From: an uncultured Atopobiaceae bacterium
Lineage (GTDB): Bacteria; Actinomycetota; Coriobacteriia; Coriobacteriales; Atopobiaceae
Direction of reading: 5' to 3'
Assembly: GCA_944321515.1 (NCBI GenBank)
Contig: CALULO010000004.1
Span: forward strand, 1-64,000
Length of the DNA: 64,000 nt
The translations under genes and the position numbers were made by a program. Below are positions 3,046-29,587 of the stretch, piece after piece. The notes beneath the pieces are model-generated. The model made no database searches and was not told the origin of the DNA. It worked only from the letters and a program-made list of their open reading frames with translations. The number at the start of each line of letters is the position of its first letter. The first letter of the stretch is position 1.

Positions 3046-4065
3046 ATGCCCTCAGACAGGAAGCGCACGGCCCGTCCGCCACGGGGGGAGCACCTCGCGG
3101 ACGTGCGCGTCATAGGTCTACCGCGCGCCCTCATGTACTACCGGCTCGGCACCAAGTGGCGCGCCTTCTTTGAGGCGCTCGGTCGAGAGGTCCAGGTGAG
3201 CAGGCCCACCGACCGCTCGATCTTCGAGCGCGGGGAGGCTCTTTCGGTTGACGAGTGCTGCCTCGCCTCAAAGCTCTATCTCGGTCACGTCGACGAGCTC
3301 GCCTCGCACGTGGACGCCGTGTTCTGCCCGAGCTTCGCCAAGCCCGGGGCATTTCGCGCCTACTGCACCAAGTTCCAGGCCCTGCCGGACCTCGTGACCA
3401 ACGCCTTCGCACTCGCCGAACGCCCGGTGACCGTGCTCTCCGAGCTCCTCTGGGAGGGCGGCGCCGAGAAGGAGGAGCGAGAGTCCTACGTCCGCCTGGC
3501 CGCGACGCTCGGGGCGTCGCGAAAGGAGGGCGTCGCCGCCTGGAAAAGAGCCCGTCGGGCGCAGGAGGACCACGATGGCCAGCTCGCCCGCGCCCAGGCG
3601 GACCTCACGCGCTCGGCGTCTCGTCTCCCCGAGGAGGCGCGGCCGCTTTCCATCCTCGTGGCGGCCCACCCCTACGTGGCCCACGACCCATACGTGGGGG
3701 GCATCGTAACCGACGCGCTGCGAGCAAATGGCGCAACGGTGCTCTTTGCCGACGAGTTCGACCACGAGCGCGCCTACCGACGCTCGCAGGACTTCTCGCC
3801 GTCCCTGCCGTGGGTGGTCAACCGCGAGCTCGTCGGTGCCATCCTCTCCCTTCACGACGAGGTTGACGGCGTCGTGCTCATCAGCGCCTTCCCGTGCGGG
3901 CCGGACTCCATGACAGACGACGCCATATCGCGCTGCGTGCACGGTCGGCCGCTGCTCACGCTCACTGTGGACGCGCAGAGCGGCACGGCCGGCGTGGAGA
4001 CGCGCGTGGAGAGCTTCGTCGACATCCTCTCGTACCAGCGCAAGGGAGGCTACCTCAATGGGTGA
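3046..4065 (+). CDS. 2-hydroxyacyl-CoA dehydratase activase-related protein (DUF2229), first copy
   Basis: This 339-aa protein matches the DUF2229 / activase-related domain. The family pattern is clear: IGLPRALMYYRLGTKWRAFF at the N-terminus, then VDECCLASKLYLGHV with a Cys pair, VDAVFCPSFA and FRAYCTKFQALPDL. The conserved cysteines suggest Fe-S or metal binding related to HgdB-type dehydratase subunits. A strong AGGAGG lies just upstream of the ATG. It is the first gene of a three-gene operon and overlaps the next gene by 8 nt. In many anaerobes equivalent domains are fused in one very large polypeptide with the activase; here they are separate. The substrate is unknown. Confidence 0.85.
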   Translation: MPSDRKRTARPPRGEHLADVRVIGLPRALMYYRLGTKWRAFFEALGREVQVSRPTDRSIFERGEALSVDECCLASKLYLGHVDELASHVDAVFCPSFAKPGAFRAYCTKFQALPDLVTNAFALAERPVTVLSELLWEGGAEKEERESYVRLAATLGASRKEGVAAWKRARRAQEDHDGQLARAQADLTRSASRLPEEARPLSILVAAHPYVAHDPYVGGIVTDALRANGATVLFADEFDHERAYRRSQDFSPSLPWVVNRELVGAILSLHDEVDGVVLISAFPCGPDSMTDDAISRCVHGRPLLTLTVDAQSGTAGVETRVESFVDILSYQRKGGYLNG

Positions 4066-5245
4066 GATTCGCGAGGTCCGACAGTCAGACGCCCCGCGTG
4101 CCAGCGTTACGGTGAGCGCGGGAGGCGCGCGCCCGACGCTGCTGCCAAGAAAGCGTCGCAGGCGTGACCGCCACTCCCGCAAGAAGGTCGCGTTTTTCCA
4201 CTACGCCTACTATGACGTGGCGTTCCAGTTCTTCGTCGAGCACGTGCTTGACGCCGACTACGTGCGCCTCCCAAGGCCAACGCGCCGCACGCTCGAGATC
4301 GGCTCAGAGCACAGCACCGACTACGTGTGCGCCCCGTTCAAGCACATCCTCGGCGGCTACGTCGAGGCCCTCGAGGCCGGGGCCAACGTCCTCGTGCAGT
4401 TCACCGGCTTCTGCCGGCTCACCTACTACGGCGAGCTCCAGGAGATGATCCTGCGCGACATGGGCTACGACGACTTCGAGATGCTCAACTTCTCCATGGT
4501 GGCCGACCACCCCTTCAAGGACTACGTCAGCTACTGCAAGAGAGTCGTGAACCCAAGCCTGTCCGTGCCAAAGGGCGTCGCCAACATGGTGGCCCTCCTA
4601 CGCATGGTCGAGCTCCTGGACGCCTACAACGACTACTACCTCGCCAACGCCGGCTTCGAGGTGGAGCCCGGCTCCTTCGAGCGCGCCCGGGAGGCCTTCT
4701 TCGACGACATGCGCTGCGCCACCGGCCGCTCGGAGATCAACCAGGCGTACCGCCACGGCATGGACGTGCTGAGGGGCCTCCCCGTCAACAAGCCCGCCCA
4801 CCCCGTGCGCGTGGGCCTCACCGGGGAGTTCTACACGGCCATCGACCCCATAAGCAACTTGGAGCTTGAGAAGAAGCTCCTCTCCATGCACGTGGAGCTC
4901 CACCGCGCGGTCAACCTCACCAACCGCATCCTGCACTACAGCGAGGAGAACACGCGCCGCTCCATAGCCGACTACGTGAGCTACGAGATGGGCCCCACCT
5001 CAAGCCTCACCATCGCCTCGGCGAAGCGCTACATGGAGGAGGGCTTTGACGGCGTGGTCCACTCCAAGTCCTCCGGCTGCACGCCGGAGATCGACTGCAT
5101 GCCCGTACTGCAGCGGCTGAGCCGGGACTTCCACGTGCCGACGCTCTTCCTGAGCTTCGACTCGCAGACCTCCGACACCGGCCTCGACACCCGCCTCGAG
5201 GCGTTCTACGACATGATCTCCATGAGGAAGGGGAGGACCCTATGA
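4058..5245 (+). CDS. 2-hydroxyacyl-CoA dehydratase activase-related protein, second component
   Basis: This 395-aa protein resembles the C-terminal part of large activase/dehydratase fusion proteins. Visible blocks are FFHYAYYDVAFQFF, DYVCAPFKHILGGYVEAL, VLVQFTGFCRLTYYGELQ, VGLTGEFYTAIDPISN and SSGCTPEIDCMPVLQRL. The spaced single cysteines (CAPFK, GFCR, GCTPEIDC) look like cluster ligands, as in HgdA/HgdB-like proteins. The ATG overlaps the previous gene by 8 nt, and the stop overlaps the next start (ATGA), so all three are translationally coupled. The first ~40 residues are basic and non-conserved. It probably partners the first DUF2229 protein and is re-energised by the activase. Confidence 0.82.
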   Translation: MGEIREVRQSDAPRASVTVSAGGARPTLLPRKRRRRDRHSRKKVAFFHYAYYDVAFQFFVEHVLDADYVRLPRPTRRTLEIGSEHSTDYVCAPFKHILGGYVEALEAGANVLVQFTGFCRLTYYGELQEMILRDMGYDDFEMLNFSMVADHPFKDYVSYCKRVVNPSLSVPKGVANMVALLRMVELLDAYNDYYLANAGFEVEPGSFERAREAFFDDMRCATGRSEINQAYRHGMDVLRGLPVNKPAHPVRVGLTGEFYTAIDPISNLELEKKLLSMHVELHRAVNLTNRILHYSEENTRRSIADYVSYEMGPTSSLTIASAKRYMEEGFDGVVHSKSSGCTPEIDCMPVLQRLSRDFHVPTLFLSFDSQTSDTGLDTRLEAFYDMISMRKGRTL

Positions 5246-6228
5246 CCGCAGGCACACCCAGCAGAAAGCGCGCCTTTCTCGGCGTCGACACCGGCTCGAT
5301 CTCCACGAAGGGCGTAGTCATTGACGAGGGGGGCAAGATCCTCGCCCGCTCCTACCTCTGGACCGAGGGCGCCCCGACCAACGCCGCGCGGCGCGTGGTC
5401 GACGAGCTCGCCTCCCAGCTGGACCGAGACCGCTACGAGGTGGTCTCGGTGGGTACCACCGGCTCCGCCCGTCGCCTGGTGGGCGCGATGCTCGGCGCAC
5501 AGGTGATCAAGAACGAGATCACCGCCCACGCCGTGGGCACCACCTTCCTGCACCCAGATGTCCGCACGATCCTGGAGATCGGCGGGCAGGACTCTAAGAT
5601 CATCCTCGTCGAGAACGGCGTCGCGGTGGACTACGCCATGAACACGCTCTGCGCGGCCGGCACGGGGTCGTTCCTGTCAAGCCAGGCGCACCGTCTCGGG
5701 GTGGAGGTGGAGCAGTTCGGCGACATAGCGGCCACCTCAAAGCACCCGGCGAACATCGCCGCGCGCTGCACCGTCTTTGCCGAGAGCGACCTCGTCCACA
5801 AGCTTCAGGTGGGCTACGAGAAGAACGACGTCATCGCGGGGCTGTGCCGTGCGGTGGCCACCAACTACCTCAACAACGTCGGCAAGGGCAAGAAGATCCA
5901 GGCGCCCGTGGTCTTCCAGGGCGGCGTCTCCAAGAACTCGGGCGTGGTGCGCGCCTTCGAGGACGAGCTCGGCATGGAGGTCCTCGTTGACCCCGACGGC
6001 CACCTCATGGGCGCCTTTGGCGCGGCGCTTCTCGCCGCCGACACGCCGGCCGCCGAGCGACGGACCTTCTCCTGGGACGTCGACGACTTCGAGTTCCGCA
6101 CGCGCGAGGTGGTCTGCGGACGCTGCGCCAACCACTGCGAGGTCGTCTGTGTCTACAAGGACGACGAGCTCATCGACTCATGGGGCAACCGCTGCGAGCG
6201 AGGCGCAGTCAGGCCGAAGGCACGCTAG
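5242..6228 (+). CDS. Acyl-CoA dehydratase activase (BadF/BadG/BcrA/BcrD ATPase)
   Basis: This 328-aa protein belongs to the ASKHA ATPase family that activates 2-hydroxyacyl-CoA dehydratases by ATP-driven electron injection. The phosphate-binding FLGVDTGSISTKGVV starts the domain. GGQDSKII, the cluster-binding TLCAAGTGSFL and ARCTVFAESDLVH follow, with VFQGGVSKN near the end. The conserved Cys residues in the AAGTG and ARC blocks would bridge a [4Fe-4S] cluster in a homodimer. The C-terminal ~35 residues add four to five Cys (CGRCANHCEVVC, NRCERG), an extension usually seen in the fused versions. It starts in an ATGA overlap with the upstream gene. Confidence 0.9.
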   Translation: MTAGTPSRKRAFLGVDTGSISTKGVVIDEGGKILARSYLWTEGAPTNAARRVVDELASQLDRDRYEVVSVGTTGSARRLVGAMLGAQVIKNEITAHAVGTTFLHPDVRTILEIGGQDSKIILVENGVAVDYAMNTLCAAGTGSFLSSQAHRLGVEVEQFGDIAATSKHPANIAARCTVFAESDLVHKLQVGYEKNDVIAGLCRAVATNYLNNVGKGKKIQAPVVFQGGVSKNSGVVRAFEDELGMEVLVDPDGHLMGAFGAALLAADTPAAERRTFSWDVDDFEFRTREVVCGRCANHCEVVCVYKDDELIDSWGNRCERGAVRPKAR

Positions 6229-6251
6229 GGCCAGGGGCTCGCTCCCGCAGC

Positions 6252-6290
6252 CGGCCCCCGCACGTGCGGCCCTCGCTCGTGCGGGGGCCG
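6252..6290 (+). terminator. Hairpin after activase operon
   Basis: A perfect 13-bp GC stem CGGCCCCCGCACG / CGTGCGGGGGCCG with a 13-nt loop lies 24 bp after the activase stop. It lacks a T tract, so terminator function is likely rather than certain. A TATCAT hexamer at 6341-6346 may be the -10 of serC. Confidence 0.55.
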
Positions 6291-6382
6291 CGTCATGTGT
6301 CCCCTGCGTTTCGGTCCCGTCGGCAGCGCGGGACACGGTCTATCATGTGCTCCACTGCATCCAACTAAAGCAGGAGGGCGAT

Positions 6383-7468
6383 ATGGCACGAGTCTTTAAC
6401 TTCTCCGCCGGGCCCGCCGTGCTTCCCGAGGAGGTCCTCGGCAAGTGCGCGGACGAGATGCTCGATTATGCCGGCTGCGGCATGAGCGTCATGGAGATGA
6501 GCCACCGATCGTCCGAGTTTCGCGCCATCGTCGAGGGGGCGGAGGCGCGCCTTCGCTCCCTCATGGGAATTCCGGAGAACTACAAGGTGATCTTCACGCA
6601 GGGCGGTGACTCGCTGCTGTTTGCCACCGTCTTCATGAACCTCGCGACAAACGGCAAGGCCGACTACGTGATCACCGGCAACTGGGCCAAGAAGGCCTTC
6701 CAGGAGGCGCAGATCCTCGGCGACGCCAAGGCCGTGGCCTCCTCAGCGGACAAGAACTTCTCCTACATTCCGGACTGCTCCGACCTGCCCATCCGCGAGG
6801 ACGCGAGCTACCTCTACATCTGCGAGAACAACACCATCTACGGCACTCGCTTCTGGGAGCTGCCCAACACCAAGGGGCACGTGCTCGTCTCCGACCAGTC
6901 CTCGATGTTCCTGTCCGGCCCGGTCGACGTCTCCCGCTACGGGCTCATCCACGCAGGCGTGCAGAAGAACGTCGGCCCAGCGGGCGTGCAGACCGTGATC
7001 GTCCGCGAGGACCTCATCCCGGAGGACCTGCCCGGAGTGCCCACGATGCTTAGGCTCAAGACCCAGGCCGACGCCGGCTCGCTCTACAACACCCCCAACT
7101 GCTGGGGCATCTACGTCTGCGGGCTCGTCTTCGAGTGGCTCGAGCGGATGGGCGGCCTCACAGCAATGGGGGAGAGGAACGCTGAGAAGGCCCGCCTGCT
7201 CTACGACTTCCTCGACTCCTCCGACCTTTTCTCGTCCACCGTGGAGCCACGCGACCGCTCCTACATGAACGTCCCCTTCGTCACCGGCGACAAGGACCTC
7301 GACGCCGAGTTCGTCTCTGCGGCAGCCGCCGCCGGGCTCGTCAACCTCAAGGGTCACCGCACGGTCGGCGGCATGCGCGCCTCGATCTACAACGCGATGC
7401 CCATCGAGGGCGTCGAGGCACTCGTAAGCTTCATGAAGGACTTCGAGGCGCGCCACGCGGCGCGCTAG
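6383..7468 (+). CDS. serC: Phosphoserine aminotransferase
   Basis: A 361-aa fold-type I PLP enzyme, the usual SerC length, begins with the characteristic RVFNFSAGPAVLPEEVL. It also has MSVMEMSHRSSEF, TQGGDSLLF and the PLP-lysine region HAGVQKNVGPAG. It converts 3-phosphohydroxypyruvate and glutamate into phosphoserine, the second step of serine synthesis. The ATG is set 7 nt after CAGGAGGG. An in-frame extension reaches far upstream through the activase 3' end but has no conserved residues. serA follows 9 bp downstream, so the two form a serine operon. Confidence 0.96.
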   Translation: MARVFNFSAGPAVLPEEVLGKCADEMLDYAGCGMSVMEMSHRSSEFRAIVEGAEARLRSLMGIPENYKVIFTQGGDSLLFATVFMNLATNGKADYVITGNWAKKAFQEAQILGDAKAVASSADKNFSYIPDCSDLPIREDASYLYICENNTIYGTRFWELPNTKGHVLVSDQSSMFLSGPVDVSRYGLIHAGVQKNVGPAGVQTVIVREDLIPEDLPGVPTMLRLKTQADAGSLYNTPNCWGIYVCGLVFEWLERMGGLTAMGERNAEKARLLYDFLDSSDLFSSTVEPRDRSYMNVPFVTGDKDLDAEFVSAAAAAGLVNLKGHRTVGGMRASIYNAMPIEGVEALVSFMKDFEARHAAR

Positions 7469-7477
7469 GGAGGCGCC

Positions 7478-8653
7478 ATGCACCGCATCCACTGCATGAA
7501 CAACATCTCCACCGTCGGCACCGACCGGCTCGCAGCGGCGGGCTACGCCTTCACCGATGACGCCGCCGACGCCGACGCATGGCTCGTGCGCAGCGCAAAC
7601 CTCCACGAGATCGAGCTGCCCGAGGGGCTTCTCGCCGTGGCGCGCGCCGGCGCCGGCGTCAACAACATCCCCGTCCAGCGGTGCGCCGAGCGTGGCGTCG
7701 TGGTCTTCAACACGCCGGGCGCGAACGCCAACGCGGTCAAGGAGCTCGTCATCTGCGGCATGCTGCTCGCCTGCCGTGACGTCATCGGCGGCGCCGAGTG
7801 GGTCCACGCCAACAGCGATGACCCCGAGATCGCAAAGAAGGCCGAGAAGGCCAAGAAGCGCTTCGGAGGGTTCGAGCTGGCCGGGCGGCGCGTGGGCGTG
7901 ATCGGCCTCGGCGCCATCGGTGCCAAGGTGGCGGACGCCCTCATCGCGCTGGGGGCCGAGGTCATGGGCTACGACCCTTACCTCTCCATCAACGCCGCCT
8001 GGGGTCTTGACCGTCGCATCGAGCACGTGACTGACCTCAACCAGCTTCTCACCTCCTGCGACTTCGTGACGCTGCACGTACCCGCCACCGACTCCACACG
8101 TGGGATGATCTCGGCCGAGGCCATCTCCCAGATGCGTCACGGGGCGGTGCTGCTCAATTGCGCCCGAGACGTCTTGGTGGACGAGCAGGCCCTTGCCGAG
8201 GCGCTCGACGACGGCAAGATCGCGCGCTACGTGACCGACTTCGCCAACCCGGCGAGCGCCAACATGAGAAACGCCATCGTCCTGCCGCACCTCGGCGCCT
8301 CCACCGGCGAGGCCGAGGACAACTGCGCGATCATGGCCGTCGGTCAGCTGCGCGACTACCTAGAGAACGGCAACATCGCCAACTCGGTCAACTACGGGCG
8401 CGTCGACCTGGGCCCGCTTGTTGAGGGCTCTCGCCTGGCACTCTTCCACGAGAACGTCCAGGGCGTCATCGGGCGCGTCTCGCAGGTTGTGGCCGACTCC
8501 GGCCTCAACATTGAGAACATGAGCAACGTAAGCCGAGGCGCCAACGCCTACACCCTCATCGAGGTCACCGGAGCGGTGTCACCCGAGGTGAGCAGCGCCC
8601 TGACGGCCCTCCCCGACATCCGACGGGTACGCGTCATAACGCCTGCCCCCTAG
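7478..8653 (+). CDS. serA: D-3-phosphoglycerate dehydrogenase with ACT domain
   Basis: This 391-aa 2-hydroxyacid dehydrogenase has the substrate-side AGAGVNNIPVQ, the Rossmann motif GVIGLGAIGAKVADAL (~residues 137-152), catalytic Arg in LLNCARDVLVD, and catalytic His in LPHLGASTGEAE. The last ~75 residues form an ACT domain (GVIGRVSQVVADSGLNIENM), consistent with feedback control by serine. It oxidises 3-phosphoglycerate in the first step of serine synthesis. Where many family members have an acidic residue after DVF, this protein reads TDFANPA. GGAGG precedes the ATG, and serC is immediately upstream. Confidence 0.93.
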   Translation: MHRIHCMNNISTVGTDRLAAAGYAFTDDAADADAWLVRSANLHEIELPEGLLAVARAGAGVNNIPVQRCAERGVVVFNTPGANANAVKELVICGMLLACRDVIGGAEWVHANSDDPEIAKKAEKAKKRFGGFELAGRRVGVIGLGAIGAKVADALIALGAEVMGYDPYLSINAAWGLDRRIEHVTDLNQLLTSCDFVTLHVPATDSTRGMISAEAISQMRHGAVLLNCARDVLVDEQALAEALDDGKIARYVTDFANPASANMRNAIVLPHLGASTGEAEDNCAIMAVGQLRDYLENGNIANSVNYGRVDLGPLVEGSRLALFHENVQGVIGRVSQVVADSGLNIENMSNVSRGANAYTLIEVTGAVSPEVSSALTALPDIRRVRVITPAP

Positions 8654-8676
8654 GAGGCGGCGAGAAGAGCCACAGG

Positions 8677-8705
8677 CCGCCCGGCTGGTTCCGTCCGCCG
8701 GGCGG
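8677..8705 (+). terminator. Terminator-like hairpin after serA
   Basis: A 9-bp GC stem CCGCCCGGC / GCCGGGCGG with an 11-nt loop lies 24 bp after the serA stop and is followed by TCTCGTAT. The T tract is weak. The following 174 bp to the next start contain a possible promoter (TAGTAT near 8830) but no gene. Confidence 0.55.
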
Positions 8706-8879
8706 TCTCGTATGCCGCGGCTTGCCGAGGCCTTCGCCGCTCGCGCACCCGTTGCCGGGCGGGATGCATCTTGCGTTAACATCCCTGCGCGTTGTGCGGA
8801 GGCATCCAAGGCTTGGTTTCGAATTGCGATAGTATGGGTAACTTGGATGGCAGCCGTATCCGTCCGGAGGACCCATAAC

Positions 8880-9614
8880 GTGTCAGAGAGAAGCGAGCGC
8901 ACCAAGACACTCATCAAGAGCATCGCAGACGCCGACGCCGCAGAGCGCCAGGCCTCTGGACGCTCGGACGTCCCCGTGGGGACGTCCGGCAATCCGTCCA
9001 CGCAGATTCTCACCGTGGCCAACGTCATCACGTTCTGTCGTCTAGCCCTCACGATCATCTTCCTCGTGCTCTTTGCGGGCGGCGAGCACCGCTACGAGGC
9101 CCTTGCCTGCTACGTCGTGGCAGCCACCACCGACTTTCTCGACGGGCAGATAGCCCGCCGCACGCAGACCGTGAGCTGGCTCGGCAAGATCATGGACCCG
9201 ATTATGGACCGCGTCCTGCTGTTCACGGGAGTTCTCGGCCTGCTCATCGTGGGTGAGCTGCCGGTCTGGGTGCCCGTCTTCGTCATAGGCCGTGACGTCT
9301 ACCTCGCCCTCGGCGGCATGATCTTGCAGCGCTTCCGTCGCCGCCCCATCGACGTCGCCTACGTGGGCAAGGCGGCCACGGCCCTGCTCATGTTCGGCTT
9401 CTGTGACCTTCTCCTCGGCCTGCCCGAGATGCCGGGCCTGGGCCTGACGGACGCGACCTGGCTGCCGGGGCTCAACGCGGTGCCGAGCGCCCTTGGCATC
9501 CTCTTCGTCTACGCAGGCGTCATCTGCTCCTTTGCGACCGCGGTCGTCTACACGTACCGCGGCGTTCGAATCGTGCGCGAAAGTCGCGCGGGCCGGGCGG
9601 AGGGCGCTCGATGA
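8880..9614 (+). CDS. CDP-alcohol phosphatidyltransferase (CDP-diacylglycerol-glycerol-3-phosphate type)
   Basis: A multi-pass membrane enzyme of 244 aa with the family signature D-G-x2-A-R-x8-G-x3-D-x3-D, read here as DGQIARRTQTVSWLGKIMDPIMD. About five hydrophobic segments follow an N-terminal soluble region of ~45 residues. It transfers a phosphatidyl group from CDP-diacylglycerol to an alcohol acceptor such as glycerol-3-phosphate. I chose GTG at 8880 after CGGAGGACC; an upstream ATG at 8712 adds non-conserved sequence. A second family member (pgsA, 32405) is in the window, so the acceptor here may differ. The stop overlaps the next start. Confidence 0.85.
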   Translation: MSERSERTKTLIKSIADADAAERQASGRSDVPVGTSGNPSTQILTVANVITFCRLALTIIFLVLFAGGEHRYEALACYVVAATTDFLDGQIARRTQTVSWLGKIMDPIMDRVLLFTGVLGLLIVGELPVWVPVFVIGRDVYLALGGMILQRFRRRPIDVAYVGKAATALLMFGFCDLLLGLPEMPGLGLTDATWLPGLNAVPSALGILFVYAGVICSFATAVVYTYRGVRIVRESRAGRAEGAR

Positions 9615-10465
9615 ACGCGCCGCGCAGGGGTGTGCTCCACAACGAGCACGTGCTTCTCGGTGCGCGGTTCAGCGAGGATGATGAGGTCGAGACGCCCCAC
9701 GTGACCTCCTACGCAAACGAGGTGACGCCTGGGGAGGGACTGGAGGGGGCTCTGCTCGCCGACCTCACGGGATGCGCCTACCTGCTTGTAAGCGGCACGT
9801 CCGCCGAGGCGTTTGGGCGCGCGATGCTTGCCGGGCGCAATCTTGCCGTGGGGGACGCGTCGTTCGAGGCGGTGCTTACCGGCGACGGCTCCGTCTGCTC
9901 GGTACCCCTTGCGCTGCGCACGGGAGACACCGAGCTCGTCCTCCTCGACCCCACCGCGCGTGGCGCCGCGCTCGAGGGCTGGGCGCGCTTTCTTGCAAGC
10001 GTGAGCCAGGGCGACGGAGCGCCCCTCGCCGGGGTCGAGGTGGAAGACGCGGGCGACATGCTCGTGCCCCTGCTACTCGCAGGGGCGGCCGCGGAAACGG
10101 TGCTCGCCGACTACGTAGGCTCGCCCGCCGACTTGCCGGTCCCAGGCAGGGTCTCCTCGCTGCATCTTGATGCCATCCCCGCCGTGGTGGCGCGCCTCCC
10201 GCGCGTCGGCGCGACGGCACCTGCCTTCCTCGTGCTCGTTCCGCCGACAAGCGCAAGGATTCTCTGGCGCAGTCTCCTCTCGTTCAGGGAGGTGAGCCCC
10301 GTGGGCTCCGAGGCCGTCCGGGCGCTTACCGAGGGGCTGCCGTGGGGGAGCCTGCTCTTGGGCGAGGGCCCCGCCCGCGCCACGTCGGAAGAGCTCGCTG
10401 GCTGGGGGCTGCTGCGCGCCGGCGAGGGCTATGTGGGCGCGCGCGGGCTTGCGGGACGCGGTTAG
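9611..10465 (+). CDS. GcvT/YgfZ-like folate-binding family protein
   Basis: This 284-aa protein is distantly related to glycine cleavage T-protein and YgfZ. The N-terminus LHNEHVLLGARFSED mimics the T-protein entry (EHxxLGARF), and YLLVSGTSAEAFGRAML matches the conserved VxGxDAxxFL block. The length is shorter than true GcvT (~360 aa), and the second half is weakly conserved, so aminomethyltransferase activity is doubtful. It may instead bind folate in Fe-S maintenance. ATGA overlap with the phosphatidyltransferase gene shows tight translational coupling, an unusual pairing. No other gcv genes are present. Confidence 0.6.
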   Translation: MNAPRRGVLHNEHVLLGARFSEDDEVETPHVTSYANEVTPGEGLEGALLADLTGCAYLLVSGTSAEAFGRAMLAGRNLAVGDASFEAVLTGDGSVCSVPLALRTGDTELVLLDPTARGAALEGWARFLASVSQGDGAPLAGVEVEDAGDMLVPLLLAGAAAETVLADYVGSPADLPVPGRVSSLHLDAIPAVVARLPRVGATAPAFLVLVPPTSARILWRSLLSFREVSPVGSEAVRALTEGLPWGSLLLGEGPARATSEELAGWGLLRAGEGYVGARGLAGRG

Positions 10466-10523
10466 CGCAGGGCTCGTCACCCTTCTCGCCCACCAGGCGA
10501 GAGAGCCCGGGAAGGGAGCAACG

Positions 10524-10904
10524 ATGAAGTACTCTATCAACGCGAAAGACGTGCCGGACGCCTTCGGCCCCTACTCGCAGGGGACCACGGCCGGGCGGCT
10601 TGTCTTTGCGTCCGGTCAGCTCCCGATCTCCCCGCGGGACAGCCACGCCCTGGTGGAGGGCGGGATAGCCGAGCAGACCGAGCGCGTCATAGACATCATC
10701 GAGTCAATTCTCTCCGAGGTGGGCTGCACGCTCGCCGACGTGGCCCAGACCACGGTCTACCTCGCGAGCCTCGCGGACATGGACGCCATGAACGAGGTCT
10801 ATGCGCGCCGCTTCACCACGCCGGCTCCCGCCCGCGCGGTGGTTGGCGTCTCGGAGCTGCCGCTCGGCGCGCTCATCGAGATGGACTGCGTCGCGTGCCG
10901 CTGA
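10524..10904 (+). CDS. ridA: RidA family enamine/imine deaminase
   Basis: This 126-aa protein of the RidA/YjgF/YER057c family has AFGPYSQG, VFASGQLPISP and the C-terminal PARAVVGVSELPLGALIEMDCVA, which includes the conserved Arg and the E/D of the active site. It hydrolyses reactive 2-aminoacrylate-type enamines released by PLP enzymes and so protects amino-acid metabolism. The size is typical. The ATG follows GGGAAGGGAG. It lies 58 bp after the GcvT-like gene and ahead of a probable promoter for the next operon. Confidence 0.92.
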   Translation: MKYSINAKDVPDAFGPYSQGTTAGRLVFASGQLPISPRDSHALVEGGIAEQTERVIDIIESILSEVGCTLADVAQTTVYLASLADMDAMNEVYARRFTTPAPARAVVGVSELPLGALIEMDCVACR

Positions 10905-10912
10905 GGCGCGCT

Positions 10913-10932
10913 ATTATCTAGTGAGTGACTCA
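10913..10932 (+). promoter_or_regulatory. Probable promoter with palindromic operator before the FHA gene
   Basis: A TATTAT -10 element (10913-10918) is followed by TGAGTGACTCA (10922-10932), an 11-bp palindrome that would cover the transcription start. The site sits in the 45-bp gap between ridA and the FHA/MerR operon. No good -35 is visible. The palindrome suggests repressor binding, possibly autoregulation by the downstream MerR-like protein; that is inference. Confidence 0.4.
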
Positions 10933-10949
10933 ATGACGAGGGGAGAGAC

Positions 10950-11375
10950 ATGCCCAATCCCAACACCGGCTCCGGGGCCACAGAGATCTTCCGGATGCCC
11001 GCCGCAGACTCCACGGTGCCCGACCTCATGGGCTCCGCGCGGCCCGCGCACCCCACGCTTACCATTGTGAAGGGGCCGCAGATAGGGGAGACCTTCGAGC
11101 TTGACTCCCGAGAGATCACGCTCGGCCGCGACCCCAAGAACAGCGTCTTCCTGAACGACATGACCGTCTCGCGCCACCACGCCCGCATGGACCTCGCGGG
11201 CGTGTCCGCCGGCATGGCCACAATCGAGGACCTTGGCTCGCTCAACGGCACCTGGGTCGACGGTGCCATCACCTCGCGCGCGAGCCTCAAGGACGGGTCC
11301 ACCATCCAGATCGGCACCTTCCGCATGGTCTTCCACACCAACCAGCGGCCGCGTCGGATAGACACCGAGGCGTAG
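10950..11375 (+). CDS. FHA-domain protein, GarA/OdhI-like
   Basis: A 141-aa protein with one FHA domain (~residues 36-130) containing ITLGRDPKNSVFLNDMTVSRHHARM, the Arg, Ser and His residues that bind phosphothreonine, and LGSLNGTWVDG. The disordered N-terminus has GATEIFRMP with Thr11, which looks like the phospho-acceptor segment of GarA/OdhI (T-x-x-F-R). In actinobacteria such proteins switch 2-oxoglutarate and glutamate enzymes under PknG-type kinases. The immediate downstream neighbour is the FtsR-like MerR gene, which is also the actinobacterial arrangement. GAGGGGAGAG precedes the ATG. Confidence 0.87.
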   Translation: MPNPNTGSGATEIFRMPAADSTVPDLMGSARPAHPTLTIVKGPQIGETFELDSREITLGRDPKNSVFLNDMTVSRHHARMDLAGVSAGMATIEDLGSLNGTWVDGAITSRASLKDGSTIQIGTFRMVFHTNQRPRRIDTEA

Positions 11376-11379
11376 GCTC

Positions 11380-12141
11380 ATGGCCGATGCCGGATACCTG
11401 ACCATCGGCAAGGTCGTCAAGAAGCTGCAGCAGCAGTACCCGGACCTCTCGATTTCCAAGGTGCGCTACCTCCAGGACGAGGGGCTGCTCAACCCCTCGC
11501 GCACGCCGAGCGGCTACCGCCTCTACTCGCAGAGGGACGTTCGCCGCCTCGAGACGATCCTCTACCTGCAGAAGACCCGCTTCCTGCCGCTCTCGGTCAT
11601 CAAGGAGGAGCTCGAGCGCGCCGACTCCGGCCAGACGCCGCTCGAGGCAGTCGGCGCAGGCCTCGGCGCAGACGCCCTCACGCTCGCCTCCGACGACGAG
11701 GAGACCGCCGGCAAGCTCCACCCAATCGACCGCATGCCCGAGCTCCTGGGGGCCTCGGTGAGCTTCGTCCGTCAGCTCTCCGAGGCGGGCGTCATCTCGC
11801 TCACGCGCTCGCCGCACGGACGCGACCTCGTCGACGGGCACGACTTTCCGCTCATCCGCGTCTGTGACGAGCTGCGCCACTTTGGCATCGGCCCCAAGAA
11901 CCTGCGCCAGTACGTCATAGCCGCCAACCGAGAGTCCTCGATGTTCGAACAGGCCCTCGTGGTCTTTGCCCGCAAGGGGGGCGGCGTCGAGATCGAGGAT
12001 ACCGAGGCTGCGCGCCAGCGCTTCGACCAGGCGTTCTCCCGGATGCTCAGCCTCACCAACGCCGTGCGTGACGAGCTCATCGCACGGCGCGTGAAGGAGC
12101 CCTTCGGCAACAATGGAAACGACGACAAGCGCGGCGCATAG
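11380..12141 (+). CDS. ftsR: MerR family regulator, FtsR-like
   Basis: A 253-aa MerR-type protein with the N-terminal winged helix LTIGKVVKKLQQQYPDLSISKVRYLQDEGLLNPSRTPSGYRLYSQRDVRRLETIL. It lacks the Cys metal site of metal sensors. Length, motif LSISKVRYLQDEGL and location 4 bp after a GarA-like FHA gene match the FtsR/Rv1828 group, which in corynebacteria activates cell-division genes. The C-terminal half has a second helical domain with IGPKNLRQYVIAANRE. The orthology call is from context and motif, not a search. It probably forms an operon with apt downstream. Confidence 0.82.
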   Translation: MADAGYLTIGKVVKKLQQQYPDLSISKVRYLQDEGLLNPSRTPSGYRLYSQRDVRRLETILYLQKTRFLPLSVIKEELERADSGQTPLEAVGAGLGADALTLASDDEETAGKLHPIDRMPELLGASVSFVRQLSEAGVISLTRSPHGRDLVDGHDFPLIRVCDELRHFGIGPKNLRQYVIAANRESSMFEQALVVFARKGGGVEIEDTEAARQRFDQAFSRMLSLTNAVRDELIARRVKEPFGNNGNDDKRGA

Positions 12142-12159
12142 GCCCCGCGCAGAAAGTGA

Positions 12160-12702
12160 GTGAGCAGCGTGTCCAGCTTTGACTTCGAGAGCCGCATTGT
12201 CGACATCCCCGACTACCCCGAGCCCGGCGTGGTGTTCAAGGACATCACGCCCCTCTTCGACGACGCGGACGCCCTGCGCGCCGTGGTCGAAGAGCTCTCT
12301 GCGCACTTCGAGGGCGCCGGCATCACCAAGGTCGTCGGCGCCGAGGCGCGCGGGTTCCTCGTGGGCGTCCCGGTGGCCTACCGCCTTGGCTGCGGCTTTG
12401 TGCCCGCTCGCAAGCCCGGCAAGCTCCCGCGCGAGGTCTACTCCGAGACCTACTCGCTTGAGTACGGTACCGACGAGCTGCAGATTCACCGAGACGCCCT
12501 GACGCCGGAGGACCGCGTGCTCATCGTTGACGACCTCGTAGCCACCGGCGGCACCGCCGTCGCCACGGCTCGGCTCGTGGAGCAGTCCGGGGCCGAGGTG
12601 GTCGGCTTTGCCTTCATTCTCGAGCTCACCTTCCTGAACCCGCGCGAGACGATAGCCAAGGAGTGCCCGCAGGAGGTCTTCACCCTCGTCAAGGTGGACT
12701 AG
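12160..12702 (+). CDS. apt: Adenine phosphoribosyltransferase
   Basis: This 180-aa enzyme has the PRPP-binding motif VLIVDDLVATGGTA (~residues 123-136). It also has the APRT-specific entry IVDIPDYPEPGVVFKDITPL and GAEARGFLVGVPVAYRLGCGFVPARKPGKLP. It salvages adenine with PRPP to AMP. The GTG at 12160 gives the full length; a second GTG at 12169 is an alternative with a similar ribosome site. It follows the MerR gene by 18 bp and ends at a strong terminator. Confidence 0.93.
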   Translation: MSSVSSFDFESRIVDIPDYPEPGVVFKDITPLFDDADALRAVVEELSAHFEGAGITKVVGAEARGFLVGVPVAYRLGCGFVPARKPGKLPREVYSETYSLEYGTDELQIHRDALTPEDRVLIVDDLVATGGTAVATARLVEQSGAEVVGFAFILELTFLNPRETIAKECPQEVFTLVKVD

Positions 12703-12737
12703 TCCGCCCGTGGCCGAAGCCGGTCCGACGCGCAGGC

Positions 12738-12769
12738 GGGGCACGCGACAGATGGCGCGTGCCCCTTTC
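12738..12769 (+). terminator. Intrinsic terminator after apt
   Basis: A 10-bp stem GGGGCACGCG / CGCGTGCCCC with an 8-nt loop is followed by TTTCT, 35 bp after the apt stop. Confidence 0.8.
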
Positions 12770-12865
12770 TGTCCGGCTTGGTATCATGGCCTTCGTATGA
12801 ACGTCCCCAGGAGCCGAGAGACGCCGCTTAGAATTAACCACAGGCTTTCGAAAGGACACGTCCAC

Positions 12866-14062
12866 ATGACGCTAAGACACAGAGTCGTTTCCGCAGGGCT
12901 CGTGGCGCTTCTTGCAGCCGGCCCCGCCGTCATTTCACTTGCTCCGTCCGGGGTGGCCATGGCCGACCCGCAGTCAGACCTCGACCAGGCCGCCGCCCAG
13001 CTTGACGCGCTTGGGGCGGAGCTCGCCGGCTACCAGGAGCAGCTCGCGGCAGCCACCACCACCCTGGAGGGCACCGACGTCGAGATTGCCGACAAGCAGG
13101 CGCAGATCGAGCAGACCTCCCAGCAGCTTGAGCAGAAGCGCTCCGAGCTCGGTGCGAACATGAGCAGCTCGTACAAGTCCGGCTCCGAGGGCCTGCTCGA
13201 GTTCATCCTCGGTTCCACGAGCGCCGAGGAGCTCGTGAGCCGCATCTACTACCTCGACAAGGTCTCCGAGCAGCAGGCCGCCAACATTCAGGAGGTTCAG
13301 AGCCTCGCCAGCCAGCTGGAGCAGGAGATGGCCGAGCTCGAGGAGCGCCAGAACACCCAGCAGCAGCAGGTGAGCGACCTCGAGGCCCAGGTGAGCGATT
13401 ACCAGGCACGCGTTGCCGAGGCCACGAGCTACTATGACTCCCTCGATGAGCAGGTGCGCGAGCAGCTCGCCGCCGAGCAGGAGGCCAACTCCAACATCTC
13501 CACCGCCGTCAGCGCCGTGGAGACCAGCCGCGAGCAGCAGGCCGCGACCGAACAGGCCAGCTCTGACTCTGGCGCACAGGCCGGAAGCACGAACGGCGGC
13601 TCCCCAGCAGCCGACTCCACCCAGCAGGAGGAGCCCGCACAGGAGCCCTCTGGCGGCAACGCGAGCACGGGCGGCAGCACGACCGGCGGATCGGGCGGCA
13701 GCCCCTCCTCCGGCAGCAGCGTAGGGTCCGGCCAGGGACTGGCCACCGCCTACGCGCAGATTGGCAAGCCCTACGTCTATGGAGCCACGGGCCCCAACGC
13801 CTTTGACTGCTCGGGCCTCGTCTGCTACTCCTACGGCTACGCCCGTGGGCGAACCACCACCGCCATGATCTCCTCGCTGAAGGCGAGCGGCGACTGGGTG
13901 ACGGACATGAGCCAGCTCCAGGTGGGCGACCTCGTGTTCCCCAACTCCGGGCATGTTGGCATCTACGTGGGCAACGGCAGGATGGTCCACGCGGCCAACC
14001 CCGCCATCGGCGTGGTCGAGGCGCCGGTCTACAGCTTCATCGGCGGCGGATCCTACTACTAG
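12866..14062 (+). CDS. Secreted NlpC/P60 peptidoglycan hydrolase with coiled-coil domain
   Basis: A 398-aa exported protein. A signal peptide with hydrophobic core VVSAGLVALLAAGPAVISL is cut after GVAMA. Long coiled coils rich in Gln and Glu follow (~residues 32-235), then a Ser/Gly/Thr linker. The C-terminal NlpC/P60 domain has catalytic Cys315 in FDCSGLV, His363 in GHVGIYVG and His375. This layout matches PcsB/RipA-like DL-endopeptidases that split daughter cells, with the coiled coil gating activity. The ATG at 12866 has GAAAGGA upstream. TATCAT at 12782-12787 may be its -10. The ClC gene starts 15 bp after the stop. Confidence 0.93.
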   Translation: MTLRHRVVSAGLVALLAAGPAVISLAPSGVAMADPQSDLDQAAAQLDALGAELAGYQEQLAAATTTLEGTDVEIADKQAQIEQTSQQLEQKRSELGANMSSSYKSGSEGLLEFILGSTSAEELVSRIYYLDKVSEQQAANIQEVQSLASQLEQEMAELEERQNTQQQQVSDLEAQVSDYQARVAEATSYYDSLDEQVREQLAAEQEANSNISTAVSAVETSREQQAATEQASSDSGAQAGSTNGGSPAADSTQQEEPAQEPSGGNASTGGSTTGGSGGSPSSGSSVGSGQGLATAYAQIGKPYVYGATGPNAFDCSGLVCYSYGYARGRTTTAMISSLKASGDWVTDMSQLQVGDLVFPNSGHVGIYVGNGRMVHAANPAIGVVEAPVYSFIGGGSYY

Positions 14063-14077
14063 CGGGCGAGCGCCGCA

Positions 14078-15670
14078 GTGGGTGACTCAGAGCAGGGCTC
14101 TGTCGAGAAGAGCCAGGGCCAGGTGGCGCGACGCCTCTCGCGGCGCTTCCAGGTGGCCCTTGTAGGCGAGGGTGCGCTTGTTGGGCTAGCCGCCGGGGCC
14201 GTGGTCACCCTCTACCGTCTGGCGCTCTCTGGTGCAGAGGGTCTGCTGAGGTCCATAACGGCCGCGGCATCGGGACACCCTCTTGCCGTGGCCGGCTGGT
14301 TTATTGTGCTCGCAGTTCTTCTCGCTGTCGTTGGGAGGCTCGTACGCTGGGAGCCCGCTACGTCCGGCTCCGGCATCCCACAGGTTGACGCAGAGGTGGC
14401 GGGCCGCTACGACGCCCCGTGGGCCCGCGTGCTGCCCGCGAAGTTCGCCGAGGGGACGCTTGGCGCGCTCGCAGGCCTCTCGCTGGGCCGCGAGGGCCCC
14501 TCAGTGCAGCTCGGCGGCATGTCCGGCAAGGCGGTCTCGTGTGCCCTCGGGCGCAGAAGGGGAGAGGAGCGGCTGCTTGTCACCTGCGGTGCCGCCGCGG
14601 GCATGTCTGCGGCGTTCCACGCTCCCTTCACCGGCGTCCTCTTTGCCCTCGAGGAGATTCACCGCGAGTTCACCGCGCCCCTCATCATCTCCGTCATGTG
14701 CTCCGCCGTCGTCTCTGACCTCGTCGTGTCCGAGGCCCTCGGCATTCAGCCCGTGATGGCGCTCGCCTTCTCCGCCGACCTCCCGCACCCTGACTACCCG
14801 TTCGTGATCGCGCTGGGACTTGCCTGTGGCGTGCTTGGGGCGCTCCACAACCGCGGCATGTTCATGGCGCAGGACCTCTTCTCCCGCGTGCGCGGTCACG
14901 TGCCCGAGGCTCGTCTCGCGCTCCCGTTCCTGCTTGCCGGCGTCGCGGCCTTTGCGTGGCCGCAGCTCATGTGCGGCGGCGACGCCATCCTCAAGGCCCT
15001 TCTCGCCCCGTCCGCACCCGCCCTCGGCGGCGTGCTCGTGCTGCTTGCGGGAAAGTACGTCTTCACCGCGGTGTGCTTTGGCTCAGGCGCCCCGGGCGGC
15101 ACCCTGTTTCCGCTCGTGGTCATGGGCGGACTCGTAGGAGGGGCCTTTGCGCACGTGTCCGGGCTTGCGCCCGCCTACTTCGCCAACTTCGTAGCGCTTG
15201 GTGTGGCCGGGCTCTTCTCGGGCGTGGTGCGTGCGCCAGTGACCGCGGTGGTTCTCGTCTTCGAGCTCACCGGGTCGCTTGACGCGCTGCTCTCCGTCTC
15301 CATCGTCTCCATCGTGGCCTACGTCACCTCAAGCCTCACGCGCACGGACGCCTTCTACGAGCACCTTCTTGCAGGCCTGCTCGGACGGGAGGGCAACGAT
15401 GCCGCGAAGGCCGAGCGCGGCCGTGGGAAAGAGCTCGGGACCGTGCGGGTCGGCGCGGGAAGCCACCTCGAGGGAATGCTCGTGCGTGAGGTGCCCTGGC
15501 CGGACGGCGCGCGTCTGCTCACGATCGAGCGCGCCGGCACCGAGCTTGCGCCGACGGGGGAGACGCAACTCGACGCCCTTGACGAGCTGCTCTTCATCGT
15601 TGACGCAGACGCCGCGGCCGACGCGAGGCTCAAGCTGCGCCTCATGGGCGAGCCGCGAGCGCGCACGTGA
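14078..15670 (+). CDS. ClC family chloride channel/antiporter with TrkA-C-like domain
   Basis: This 530-aa membrane protein has the three ClC selectivity blocks: GSGIPQV (97-103), GREGPSVQLGG (137-147, with the gating Glu139) and GSGAPGGTLFPLVVMGG. Ten or more hydrophobic helices are expected. The C-terminal ~80 residues (LGTVRVGAGSHLEGMLVREVPWPDGARLLTIERAG) resemble a TrkA-C/RCK_C ligand-binding domain. The gating Glu suggests H+/Cl- exchange rather than a passive channel. The GTG start at 14078 has a weak ribosome site, so the N-terminus is uncertain. It ends upstream of a bidirectional terminator and the candidate dif. Confidence 0.9.
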   Translation: MGDSEQGSVEKSQGQVARRLSRRFQVALVGEGALVGLAAGAVVTLYRLALSGAEGLLRSITAAASGHPLAVAGWFIVLAVLLAVVGRLVRWEPATSGSGIPQVDAEVAGRYDAPWARVLPAKFAEGTLGALAGLSLGREGPSVQLGGMSGKAVSCALGRRRGEERLLVTCGAAAGMSAAFHAPFTGVLFALEEIHREFTAPLIISVMCSAVVSDLVVSEALGIQPVMALAFSADLPHPDYPFVIALGLACGVLGALHNRGMFMAQDLFSRVRGHVPEARLALPFLLAGVAAFAWPQLMCGGDAILKALLAPSAPALGGVLVLLAGKYVFTAVCFGSGAPGGTLFPLVVMGGLVGGAFAHVSGLAPAYFANFVALGVAGLFSGVVRAPVTAVVLVFELTGSLDALLSVSIVSIVAYVTSSLTRTDAFYEHLLAGLLGREGNDAAKAERGRGKELGTVRVGAGSHLEGMLVREVPWPDGARLLTIERAGTELAPTGETQLDALDELLFIVDADAAADARLKLRLMGEPRART

Positions 15671-15746
15671 CGGGCAGCCTTGCCTGAGTAATTGGGACGA
15701 CGGACCTGAGGCGAAGGGCCTCTGCATCCGTCATGCCACGTGCGCG

Positions 15747-15785
15747 AAAAAGGAGGGGCCGCTCCGTCAAGGCTAGAGCGGCCCC
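15747..15785. terminator. Bidirectional terminator between ClC gene and trxB
   Basis: A 10-bp stem GGGGCCGCTC (15755-15764) / GAGCGGCCCC (15776-15785) with an 11-nt loop. On the minus strand it is followed by TCCTTTTT, giving a good T tract for trxB; on plus it is followed by CGTTTGTG. It lies between convergent genes. Confidence 0.8.
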
Positions 15786-15835
15786 CGTTTGTGTCTTGGG
15801 CCTTCACTGGCCCTTTTGTAGATGAGAATGGCTCT

Positions 15836-15863
15836 ACTTTACATAAGATATATTATCACGGAT
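15836..15863 (-). other. dif: Candidate chromosomal dif site (XerC/XerD recombination)
   Basis: A 28-bp AT-rich element stands out from GC-rich surroundings. On plus it reads XerD-side arm ACTTTACATAA (15836-15846), central GATATA (15847-15852), XerC-side arm TTATCACGGAT (15853-15863). On minus the XerD arm is TTATGTAAAGT, nearly the arm of B. subtilis dif (TTATGTAAACT) and the actinobacterial form (TTATGTCAAGT). The other arm ends in GATAA, as in many dif sites. It lies between convergent genes exactly where gene orientation switches from mostly plus to mostly minus, as expected at the terminus. Comparison sequences are recalled, not searched. Confidence 0.78.
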
Positions 15864-15925
15864 TTGCAGGGGAGCTGAGCGAGGGAAATACCCAGGCTGA
15901 AAGCCGGTTACCATCAGGGAGCACG

Positions 15926-16882
15926 CTAGCCCTCAACCGGTCGGCCGAGATATGCCGCCGCACTCGTCGCCGCCACCGCACCATCGGCCGCGGCAGTCAC
16001 GATCTGACGAAGCGGTTTCTCGCGTACGTCACCCGCCACGAAGAGCCCCGGCGTGCTTGTGGCCATCCGCTCGTCGGTCACCACGTAGCCGGCCTCATCA
16101 AGGTCCACGAGCCCGTCGACGAGCCCGGTCTCGGGCACGCGGCCCACAAAGACGAAGACTCCAAAGGAGCCTTCGTCGTAGGTCTCCTCGTAGGTATTTC
16201 CGGTGGCGTTGTCGCGCAGCGTGAGCCTCGAGGGAAGCTCGCCGCCGTCAACCGCCACAAGGCTTGTGAGCAGGCGCACCTCGACCTTGTCGTTCTCATC
16301 GAGCTCTTGGACAAGTGCAGACTGCGCCCGGAGATGGTCCTTGCGGACAAGCAGCGTCACCTTGCTCGCGAAGCGCGTGAGGAACAGCGCCTCCTCGGCG
16401 GCAGAGTTCCCTCCCCCGATTACAAACACCTGTTTGCCCCTATAGAACATGCCGTCGCACGTGGCGCAGTACGAGACGCCATGACCGGCAAAGCGCTCCT
16501 CGCCCTTGAAGCCGGCGCGACGCGGCTGCGCGCCTGCCGCCACGATGACCGCGGCGGCGTCATAGGACGTGGTGGCGGTGCGTACCAAGAGCCGCCCCGT
16601 CGACTCGTCGCGATCTATTGCCTCGACGGGGTCCATTGCGACCTCCGCGCCGAGCTCGGTCGCCTGGCGCTGCATGGCGTCCACGAGAGAGAAGCCGTCT
16701 GCGTTGGGCACGCCAGGGTAGTTGTCTATCTCGTTCGTGAGGATGACCTGGCCGCCGAGCGCCTCACGCTCAAGCGTCACGGCGTCGAGCAGCGAGCGCT
16801 GGGCGTAGATCGCAGCTGAGAGCCCGGCCGGCCCCCCGCCGACGATGACCAGGTCCTTCTTGACAGCAACAGCCTGAGACAT
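15926..16882 (-). CDS. trxB: Thioredoxin reductase
   Basis: This 318-aa FAD flavoprotein has the N-terminal dinucleotide motif VIVGGGPAGLSAA (~12-24), the redox-active C139-A-T-C142 in SYCATCDG, the NADPH motif VIGGGNSAAEEA, and the C-terminal FVAGDVREKPLRQIVTAAADGAVAA. It reduces thioredoxin with NADPH. The length is standard. The start is fixed by GAGGAAGGGAG upstream. A TATAAG -10-like hexamer on minus lies at 16908-16913. No thioredoxin gene adjoins it. It is the first minus-strand gene right of the candidate dif. Confidence 0.95.
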   Translation of the reverse strand: MSQAVAVKKDLVIVGGGPAGLSAAIYAQRSLLDAVTLEREALGGQVILTNEIDNYPGVPNADGFSLVDAMQRQATELGAEVAMDPVEAIDRDESTGRLLVRTATTSYDAAAVIVAAGAQPRRAGFKGEERFAGHGVSYCATCDGMFYRGKQVFVIGGGNSAAEEALFLTRFASKVTLLVRKDHLRAQSALVQELDENDKVEVRLLTSLVAVDGGELPSRLTLRDNATGNTYEETYDEGSFGVFVFVGRVPETGLVDGLVDLDEAGYVVTDERMATSTPGLFVAGDVREKPLRQIVTAAADGAVAATSAAAYLGRPVEG

Positions 16883-28033: not shown

Positions 28034-29587
28034 CTACTTGGCCACGTCGACGGCGCGCGACTCGCGAATCACCACAACGCGCACCTGGCCGGGGTACTCC
28101 ATCTCGTCCTCGATCTGCTTGGCGATGTCATGGGCGAGGACGGTGGCCTGTGCGTCGGAGATCTTCTCGGGCTCGACCATCACGTGAAGCTCGCGACCGG
28201 CCTGCATTGCGTAGGTGCGCTCGACGCCGTCGTGCGCGTTGGAGATCTTCTCGAGCTTCTCGAGTCGCTTGATGTAGTTCTCCGCAGACTCGCGACGCGC
28301 GCCGGGGCGGGCCGCAGAGATGGCGTCGGCAGCCTGGACGAGGACGTCGAGCACGGTGTCGGGATCGACGTCGGCGTGGTGGGCCTCGATGGCGTGGACG
28401 ATCTCGGGGCGCTCGCCGTAGCGGCGGGCAAGGTCGGCCCCGATTACGGCGTGCGGGCCCTCAACCTCGTGGTCGATGGCCTTCCCTAGGTCGTGGAGGA
28501 GGCCCGCGCGCTTGGCAGGAGCCTCGTCAAGCCCGAGCTCGGAGGCCATGATGCCGCAGAGGGCGGAGACCTGGACGGAGTGCGAGAGCACGTTCTGGCC
28601 GAAGGAGGTGCGGTAGCGCAGGGCGCCGAGGGTCTTCACGAGCTCGGGGTGCAGGTCGTGGATGCCGGCGTCGAAGGCGGCCTGCTCGCCGGCCTCGCGC
28701 ACGCGCTCGGCCACGAGCGCCTCGGCCTTCTTGTAGAGCTCCTCGATGCGCGCCGGGTGGATGCGGCCGTCGGCGATGAGGTTCTCCAGGGCGACGCGGG
28801 CGGTCTCGCGGCGCACCGGGTCGAAGCTCGAGAGCACAACGGTCTCAGGGGTGTCGTCAATCACGAGCGAGACGCCCGAGACCTGCTCGAAGGTGCGGAT
28901 GTTGCGGCCCTCTCGGCCGATGATACGGCCCTTGAGGTCGTCGGAGGGGATGTGGACCGAAGTCACCGTGATCTCGCCCGCCTGGTCTGCGGCGCAGCGC
29001 TGAATGGCCGTGGAGATGATCTCGCGCGCGGTCTTGTCAGCCTGCGCGCGGACGGACTGCTCCGCCTCGCGCAGGATCTGGGCCTCCTCGCGCACGGACT
29101 CGGCGCGGACGCGGGCGAGAAGCTCGTCGTGGGCCTCGTCGCTGGAAAGGCCGGCGATGCGCTCGAGCTCGCTCTGCTGGCGCGCCTCCATCTCGTCGAG
29201 GTCGCTCTTGCGGCGGTCAAGCTGCCCCTGTAGGCTCGAGAGCTGGTGCTCGCGACGGTCGAGCGCGTCGTTACGGTGGTCGAGGGACTCCTCGCGCTGC
29301 ATGATGCGGTTCTCCATGTTCTGGAGCTCCTGCTTGCGCTTCTTCTCCTCGGCCTCGGAGTTCTGCTTGAGCTGGAGGATCTCCTCCTTCGCCTCGAGGA
29401 CGGCCTCCTTCTTGGTGCTCTCCGCCTGGCGAGCCGCCTCAGAGGCGATGCGCTCGGCCTCGGTCTTGGCGGAATCAAGGTGGGACTGGGCCTCCTTGAG
29501 CCTCGAGCCGCTCTGGCCTGCTAGGACGAAGTAAACGACGGCTGCACCGACAACCAGGCAGACCGCCCCGACGATAACTAACTCCAT
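28034..29587 (-). CDS. rny: Ribonuclease Y
   Basis: This 517-aa membrane-anchored endoribonuclease starts with one TM helix ([21 protein letters not shown], ~4-24). A long coiled coil follows (~30-205), then a KH domain ([24 protein letters not shown]), and an HD domain with [17 protein letters not shown] and [12 protein letters not shown]. It starts mRNA decay at the membrane. Size and domain order are exactly those of the family. RNase J and PNPase are also encoded in this window. Confidence 0.97.

Follow-up and report, generated by a model that had tools for sequence, protein, structure and literature searches.

The 28-bp AT-rich element at 15836-15863 of the window (the whole stretch of DNA analysed, 64,000 nucleotides long) raises the question of whether it is the chromosome's single XerC/XerD dif site, and of what else might have kept such an element in place. 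It is almost certainly that site, a call based on the element itself, its copy number, its conservation and its position opposite dnaA in relatives, together with its protein partners, the switch of a polar motif at dif and the joint absence of dif and XerC/XerD from one genus. The 28-mer is an ordinary dif of known kind, to which the analysis adds a candidate guide motif, a repair of the GC skew signal and the case of that related genus (represented by G022).

On the plus strand the element reads ACTTTACATAA GATATA TTATCACGGAT, two 11-bp arms around a 6-bp centre, and the AT-rich 28-bp element with 11-6-11 layout described in the initial annotation is present where it was claimed. The convergent intergenic setting was likewise borne out, dif being housed in the 255 bp that separate a ClC-type chloride transporter gene (clc) from a thioredoxin-reductase-like gene (trxR-like), and the reported switch in gene orientation is real, with 13 genes on the plus and one on the minus strand to the left of dif and four on the plus and 33 on the minus strand to its right in a codon-position-aware ORF set for the window. 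The features at the site are as follows.

14078 to 15670, plus strand: ClC-type chloride transporter gene, left of dif; 32 of 49 loci in the family have it nearby
15755 to 15785, strand not applicable: hairpin GGGGCCGCTC / GAGCGGCCCC resembling a terminator, located between clc and dif and read from the sequence
15836 to 15863, minus strand: the 28-bp element read as dif, ATCCGTGATAA-TATATC-TTATGTAAAGT
15836 to 15846, minus strand: XerD-side arm TTATGTAAAGT, nearly invariant
15847 to 15852, minus strand: central hexamer TATATC (GATATA on plus), differing among genera
15853 to 15863, minus strand: XerC-side arm ATCCGTGATAA, inner GATAA invariant and outer half variable in the family
15926 to 16882, minus strand: thioredoxin-reductase-like gene, right of dif; 33 of 49 loci in the family have it nearby

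In common with the XerCD-dif systems of E. coli, B. subtilis and actinobacteria, the element has 28 bp in an 11-6-11 layout, occurs once opposite the origin, has a conserved XerD arm (nine or 10 of 11 positions identical) and is accompanied by two recombinases and an FtsK with a gamma domain, differing from them in detail in the letters of arms and centre, in its Atopobiaceae host and in the closeness of ftsK to dif. The XerD arm is identical at 10 of 11 positions to that of B. subtilis dif and at nine of 11 to that of E. coli dif. It also matches the F. alni dif at 10 of 11 positions, the comparison sequence being that given in PMC3025954, and the likeness of the arm to B. subtilis and actinobacterial dif is as the initial annotation had noted. 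A more conserved XerD arm is part of the dif signature in general (PMC3025954). The statement that dif sites of this lineage had gone undescribed may hold in part, no description of a Coriobacteriales dif having been found by literature search, but a survey predicts dif in 66 of the 66 actinobacterial genomes examined, which may include Coriobacteriia (PMC3025954).

The bacterium's own genome contained a single match at up to three mismatches in 24 positions, with none for a reversed-pattern control, while a scan of the family found matches in 110 of 140 genomes, 106 of them with exactly one site, the reversed-pattern control again giving none. On these counts the match at 15836-15863 is not due to chance, and the single copy per chromosome that the initial annotation had expected was found in the own genome and in these 106 family genomes. 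The expected conservation was also seen beyond the family, with the arms kept at no more than one mismatch in 193 of 217 genomes of the order (completeness floor of 95%, own genome included), such that the arm pattern finds dif throughout Coriobacteriales. Seventeen of the 30 family genomes without a match carry exact arms around another central hexamer, most of them belonging to genus g31 and others to g15. Loci of these two genera have invariant arms and a centre that differs by species (CTGCGA, CAACGA, GTGCGA, TATCGA and others), a drift suggesting that the central hexamer is free to change. Some family genomes having XerC/XerD gave no detectable dif at all (G012, for example), which could mean that the site falls in a gap of the draft or has diverged.

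Alignment of 45 distinct loci confined the conservation approximately to the 28-mer and one or two flanking bases. The XerD arm is near invariant and the GATAA of the XerC side invariant, with variation in the centre and in the outer part of the XerC arm. Because the loci were found via their arms, the arm columns are partly selected, more so than those of the centre and outer part. The centre GATATA was present in 20 of the 45. The same 22-mer is also present in contigs whose labels include Atribacteria, Solincola and Acidobacteria, and the arms are therefore not specific to this lineage.

An intergenic, AT-rich 28-mer could equally be pictured as a promoter, operator or other regulatory element conserved for transcription, but the genes on either side converge, so that a promoter is not expected in the gap, and the arms persist despite changes of the centre and the replacement of flanking genes (about 16 of 49 loci are without clc or trxR beside dif). 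With the 28-mer absent in addition from the genus that has no XerC/XerD (G022), a transcriptional role is an exceedingly improbable explanation of its conservation.

As a dif site, the 28-mer marks where the replication terminus region lies in this Atopobiaceae lineage. In closed or near-closed relatives the distance from dnaA to dif is 0.46-0.55 of the chromosome, as in G088, a member of the same genus, in which dnaA lies at 179 and dif at 1,077,271 in a length of 2,163,714 (0.498). Since the own genome is a draft in 16 contigs, its terminus position was assigned by synteny with relatives, and on this footing the proposal that the window spans the replication terminus was upheld.

The expectation that a GC-skew extremum would fall near the site failed for raw skew. 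Raw GC skew in the window is negative to the left of dif and mostly positive to the right, a pattern opposite to that of a terminus, and in the pieced-together G088 chromosome the maximum of the raw cumulative skew lies at 1,695,483, with dif at 1,077,271; raw cumulative skew was rejected as a terminus locator, its extremum being 0.6 Mb off dif. Third codon positions are C-rich on the coding strand in both the window and the G088 chromosome, with a GC3 skew in G088 of -0.17 for leading and -0.21 for lagging genes, and it is because of this that the raw skew is weak and locally reversed in sign. Subtraction of the mean coding bias before cumulation gave a gene-strand-corrected GC3 skew for G088 with its maximum at 1,065,161, 12 kb from dif, and its minimum close to dnaA, at 28,634. 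In the intergenic DNA of G088 the skew also switches sign.

A second marker of the terminus is provided by the heptamer GGGGGAG, which was the most consistently polar heptamer in G088 when strata were formed by gene orientation and came first by amplitude in a heptamer search blind to dif. In G088, 512 of 624 copies point from origin to dif and the switch, at 1,076,686-1,078,039 (1.35 kb), encloses dif. The same polarity is seen in the window, where the copies are distributed as follows.

3084 to 15562, plus strand: four GGGGGAG (3084, 7168, 10344 and 15556) directed toward dif, none opposed left of dif
16411 to 63699, minus strand: 24 GGGGGAG directed toward dif, only two opposed (30794 and 57281)

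The switch in the window is thus the gap 15556-16411, with dif inside it (Fisher p = 5e-4). In other genomes, GGGGGAG at 115 dif loci was directed toward dif in 233 cases to 21, made up of 205:16 at the 96 loci classed as Coriobacteriia by title and 28:5 at the remaining loci, while in G059 the shorter GGGGAG switches at 864,590-865,787, an interval that holds dif (865,256). Polarity toward dif and a switch at dif are the behaviour of KOPS (PMC13342612, PMC3025954), and GGGGGAG is a KOPS candidate for which polarity and switch are observed and binding by FtsK is putative. It resembles KOPS/SRS, including the E. coli GGGNAGGG, in being a short, G-rich polar motif that runs from origin to dif and switches there, with the difference that GGGGGAG, a heptamer, performs best here and that GGGNAGGG is only weakly polar in G088 (302:193). 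The known guide motifs tried in G088, namely GGGNAGGG, GAGAAGGG and GAAGAAG, had weak or no polarity and were rejected.

The polarity of GGGGGAG might alternatively arise secondarily, from mutation on the leading strand or from codon bias, an explanation that touches the guide-motif claim and leaves dif itself aside. CAAGGAG and other heptamers do have a codon-linked leading-strand bias and likewise switch near dif, but the bias of GGGGGAG in G088 is alike in genes of the leading strand (250:53), genes of the lagging strand (189:38) and intergenic DNA (73:21), its amplitude exceeds that of every other heptamer and its GGGGAG core is contained in a form of the KOPS of E. coli, GGGNAGGG, such that a secondary origin seems unlikely. 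Read as a guide motif, GGGGGAG is a candidate for the signal followed by FtsK, and its switch is a terminus locator usable where raw GC skew fails.

The switch also bears on whether the 28-mer could be an attP or attL site, belonging to a mobile element that makes use of Xer recombination, and not the chromosomal dif. Relatives do have dif-like sites by tyrosine recombinase genes, but the 28-mer is single-copy, retains the same housekeeping neighbours in many genera, lies opposite dnaA in relatives and at the motif switch, and has no phage or integrase gene seen beside it; this reading is mostly refuted by the synteny in relatives and has a negligible probability. The second dif-like sites of relatives, in which the arms are good and the centres odd, are G065:C23:97758, G065:C36:24262, G115:C9:557804, G135:C9:7833, G136:C186:26420, G137:C19:508, G018:C2:115866 and G021:C2:176635. 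Both of the G065 sites have tyrosine recombinase matches a few hundred bases away and are probably mobile elements exploiting Xer.

The partners of a chromosomal dif are in place: the own genome has a pair of XerC/XerD genes (G000:C5:23148 and C7:42441), nearly every family genome has exactly two, and an FtsK gamma domain is encoded in 136 of 140 family genomes. The ftsK gene itself lies in the window.

36593 to 39094, minus strand: ftsK, encoding 4TM, alpha, motor and gamma (PF09397) domains; it lies some 20 kb away from dif, with transcription running toward dif

In the 100 genomes where ftsK and dif share a contig, the median distance from one to the other was 20.7 kb, 92 of these genomes falling within 13-26 kb. 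In the survey, xerC is mostly near dif with ftsK further away, between xerC and xerD (PMC3025954), and for this reason the tight linkage looks like synteny of this lineage.

Xer binding, strand exchange and activation at the 28-mer would follow by analogy with the established XerCD-FtsK model. When sister chromosomes have become a dimer, the septal translocase FtsK would load on polar motifs, for which GGGGGAG is the candidate, and would pump both chromosome arms toward dif, bringing two copies of dif together. The gamma domain of FtsK would then activate XerD, with a single exchange within the central hexamer restoring two monomer chromosomes.

Among 274 genomes of the order (completeness floor of 90%), G022 is the sole one without XerC/XerD at E <= 1e-60. 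Its dif is missing too, none being found genome-wide at two mismatches to the arm pattern or at eight mismatches in 24 positions in 182 kb around ftsK, and this joint absence of dif and XerC/XerD supports the view that the 28-mer of the window serves XerC/XerD. Gene order around the G022 region is largely as in the window, its FtsK retains the gamma domain and GGGGGAG switches at 557,454-564,399, with 20:1 on the left and 0:21 on the right. Within the switch interval and straight after apt, G022:C1 encodes a tyrosine recombinase of 339 residues (561,766-562,785) with the R, K, HxxR, H and Y catalytic residues in place. A perfect 13-6-13 inverted repeat, ATTTCTTGTGCCG-TCACGT-CGGCACAAGAAAT, starts at its stop codon and occurs once in the G022 genome, recombinase and repeat together spanning G022:C1:561766-562816 (L312:1766-2816). 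Two more inverted repeats, of 16-1-16 and 13-8-13, lie nearby, and the 13-6-13 repeat is probably, of the three, the site of the adjacent recombinase. No relatives of the repeat or the recombinase were found in viral contigs, and no matching repeat was found with homologues of the recombinase at 35-43% identity, a set with no close relative among them.

We would give an even chance to the reading, resting on this one genome, that XerC, XerD and dif were lost in G022 and replaced in the same neighbourhood by a single plasmid-derived recombinase with an adjacent symmetric site, FtsK and the guide motifs being kept. Single tyrosine recombinases with the site beside the gene are known as XerS and XerH (PMC5357621), and the XerL of Coxiella is plasmid-borne (PMC9765430). 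G022 is like XerS/difSL, XerH/difH and XerL/dif in having one tyrosine recombinase instead of two and unlike them in that its recombinase is nearer to plasmid recombinases and its candidate site is a 13-6-13 repeat of unrelated sequence. If true, the replacement would be an independent origin of chromosome dimer resolution by one recombinase and would allow one to ask how a gamma-bearing FtsK works with a foreign recombinase. The nearest relatives in a plasmid collection come from streptococcal, lactobacillar and staphylococcal plasmids, the plasmid tyrosine recombinases being 33-41% identical to that of G022 and some of them adjoining replication helicase or ParA genes. In a comparison of profiles, the G022 recombinase was closer to the XerC/XerD profiles than to the XerS profile.
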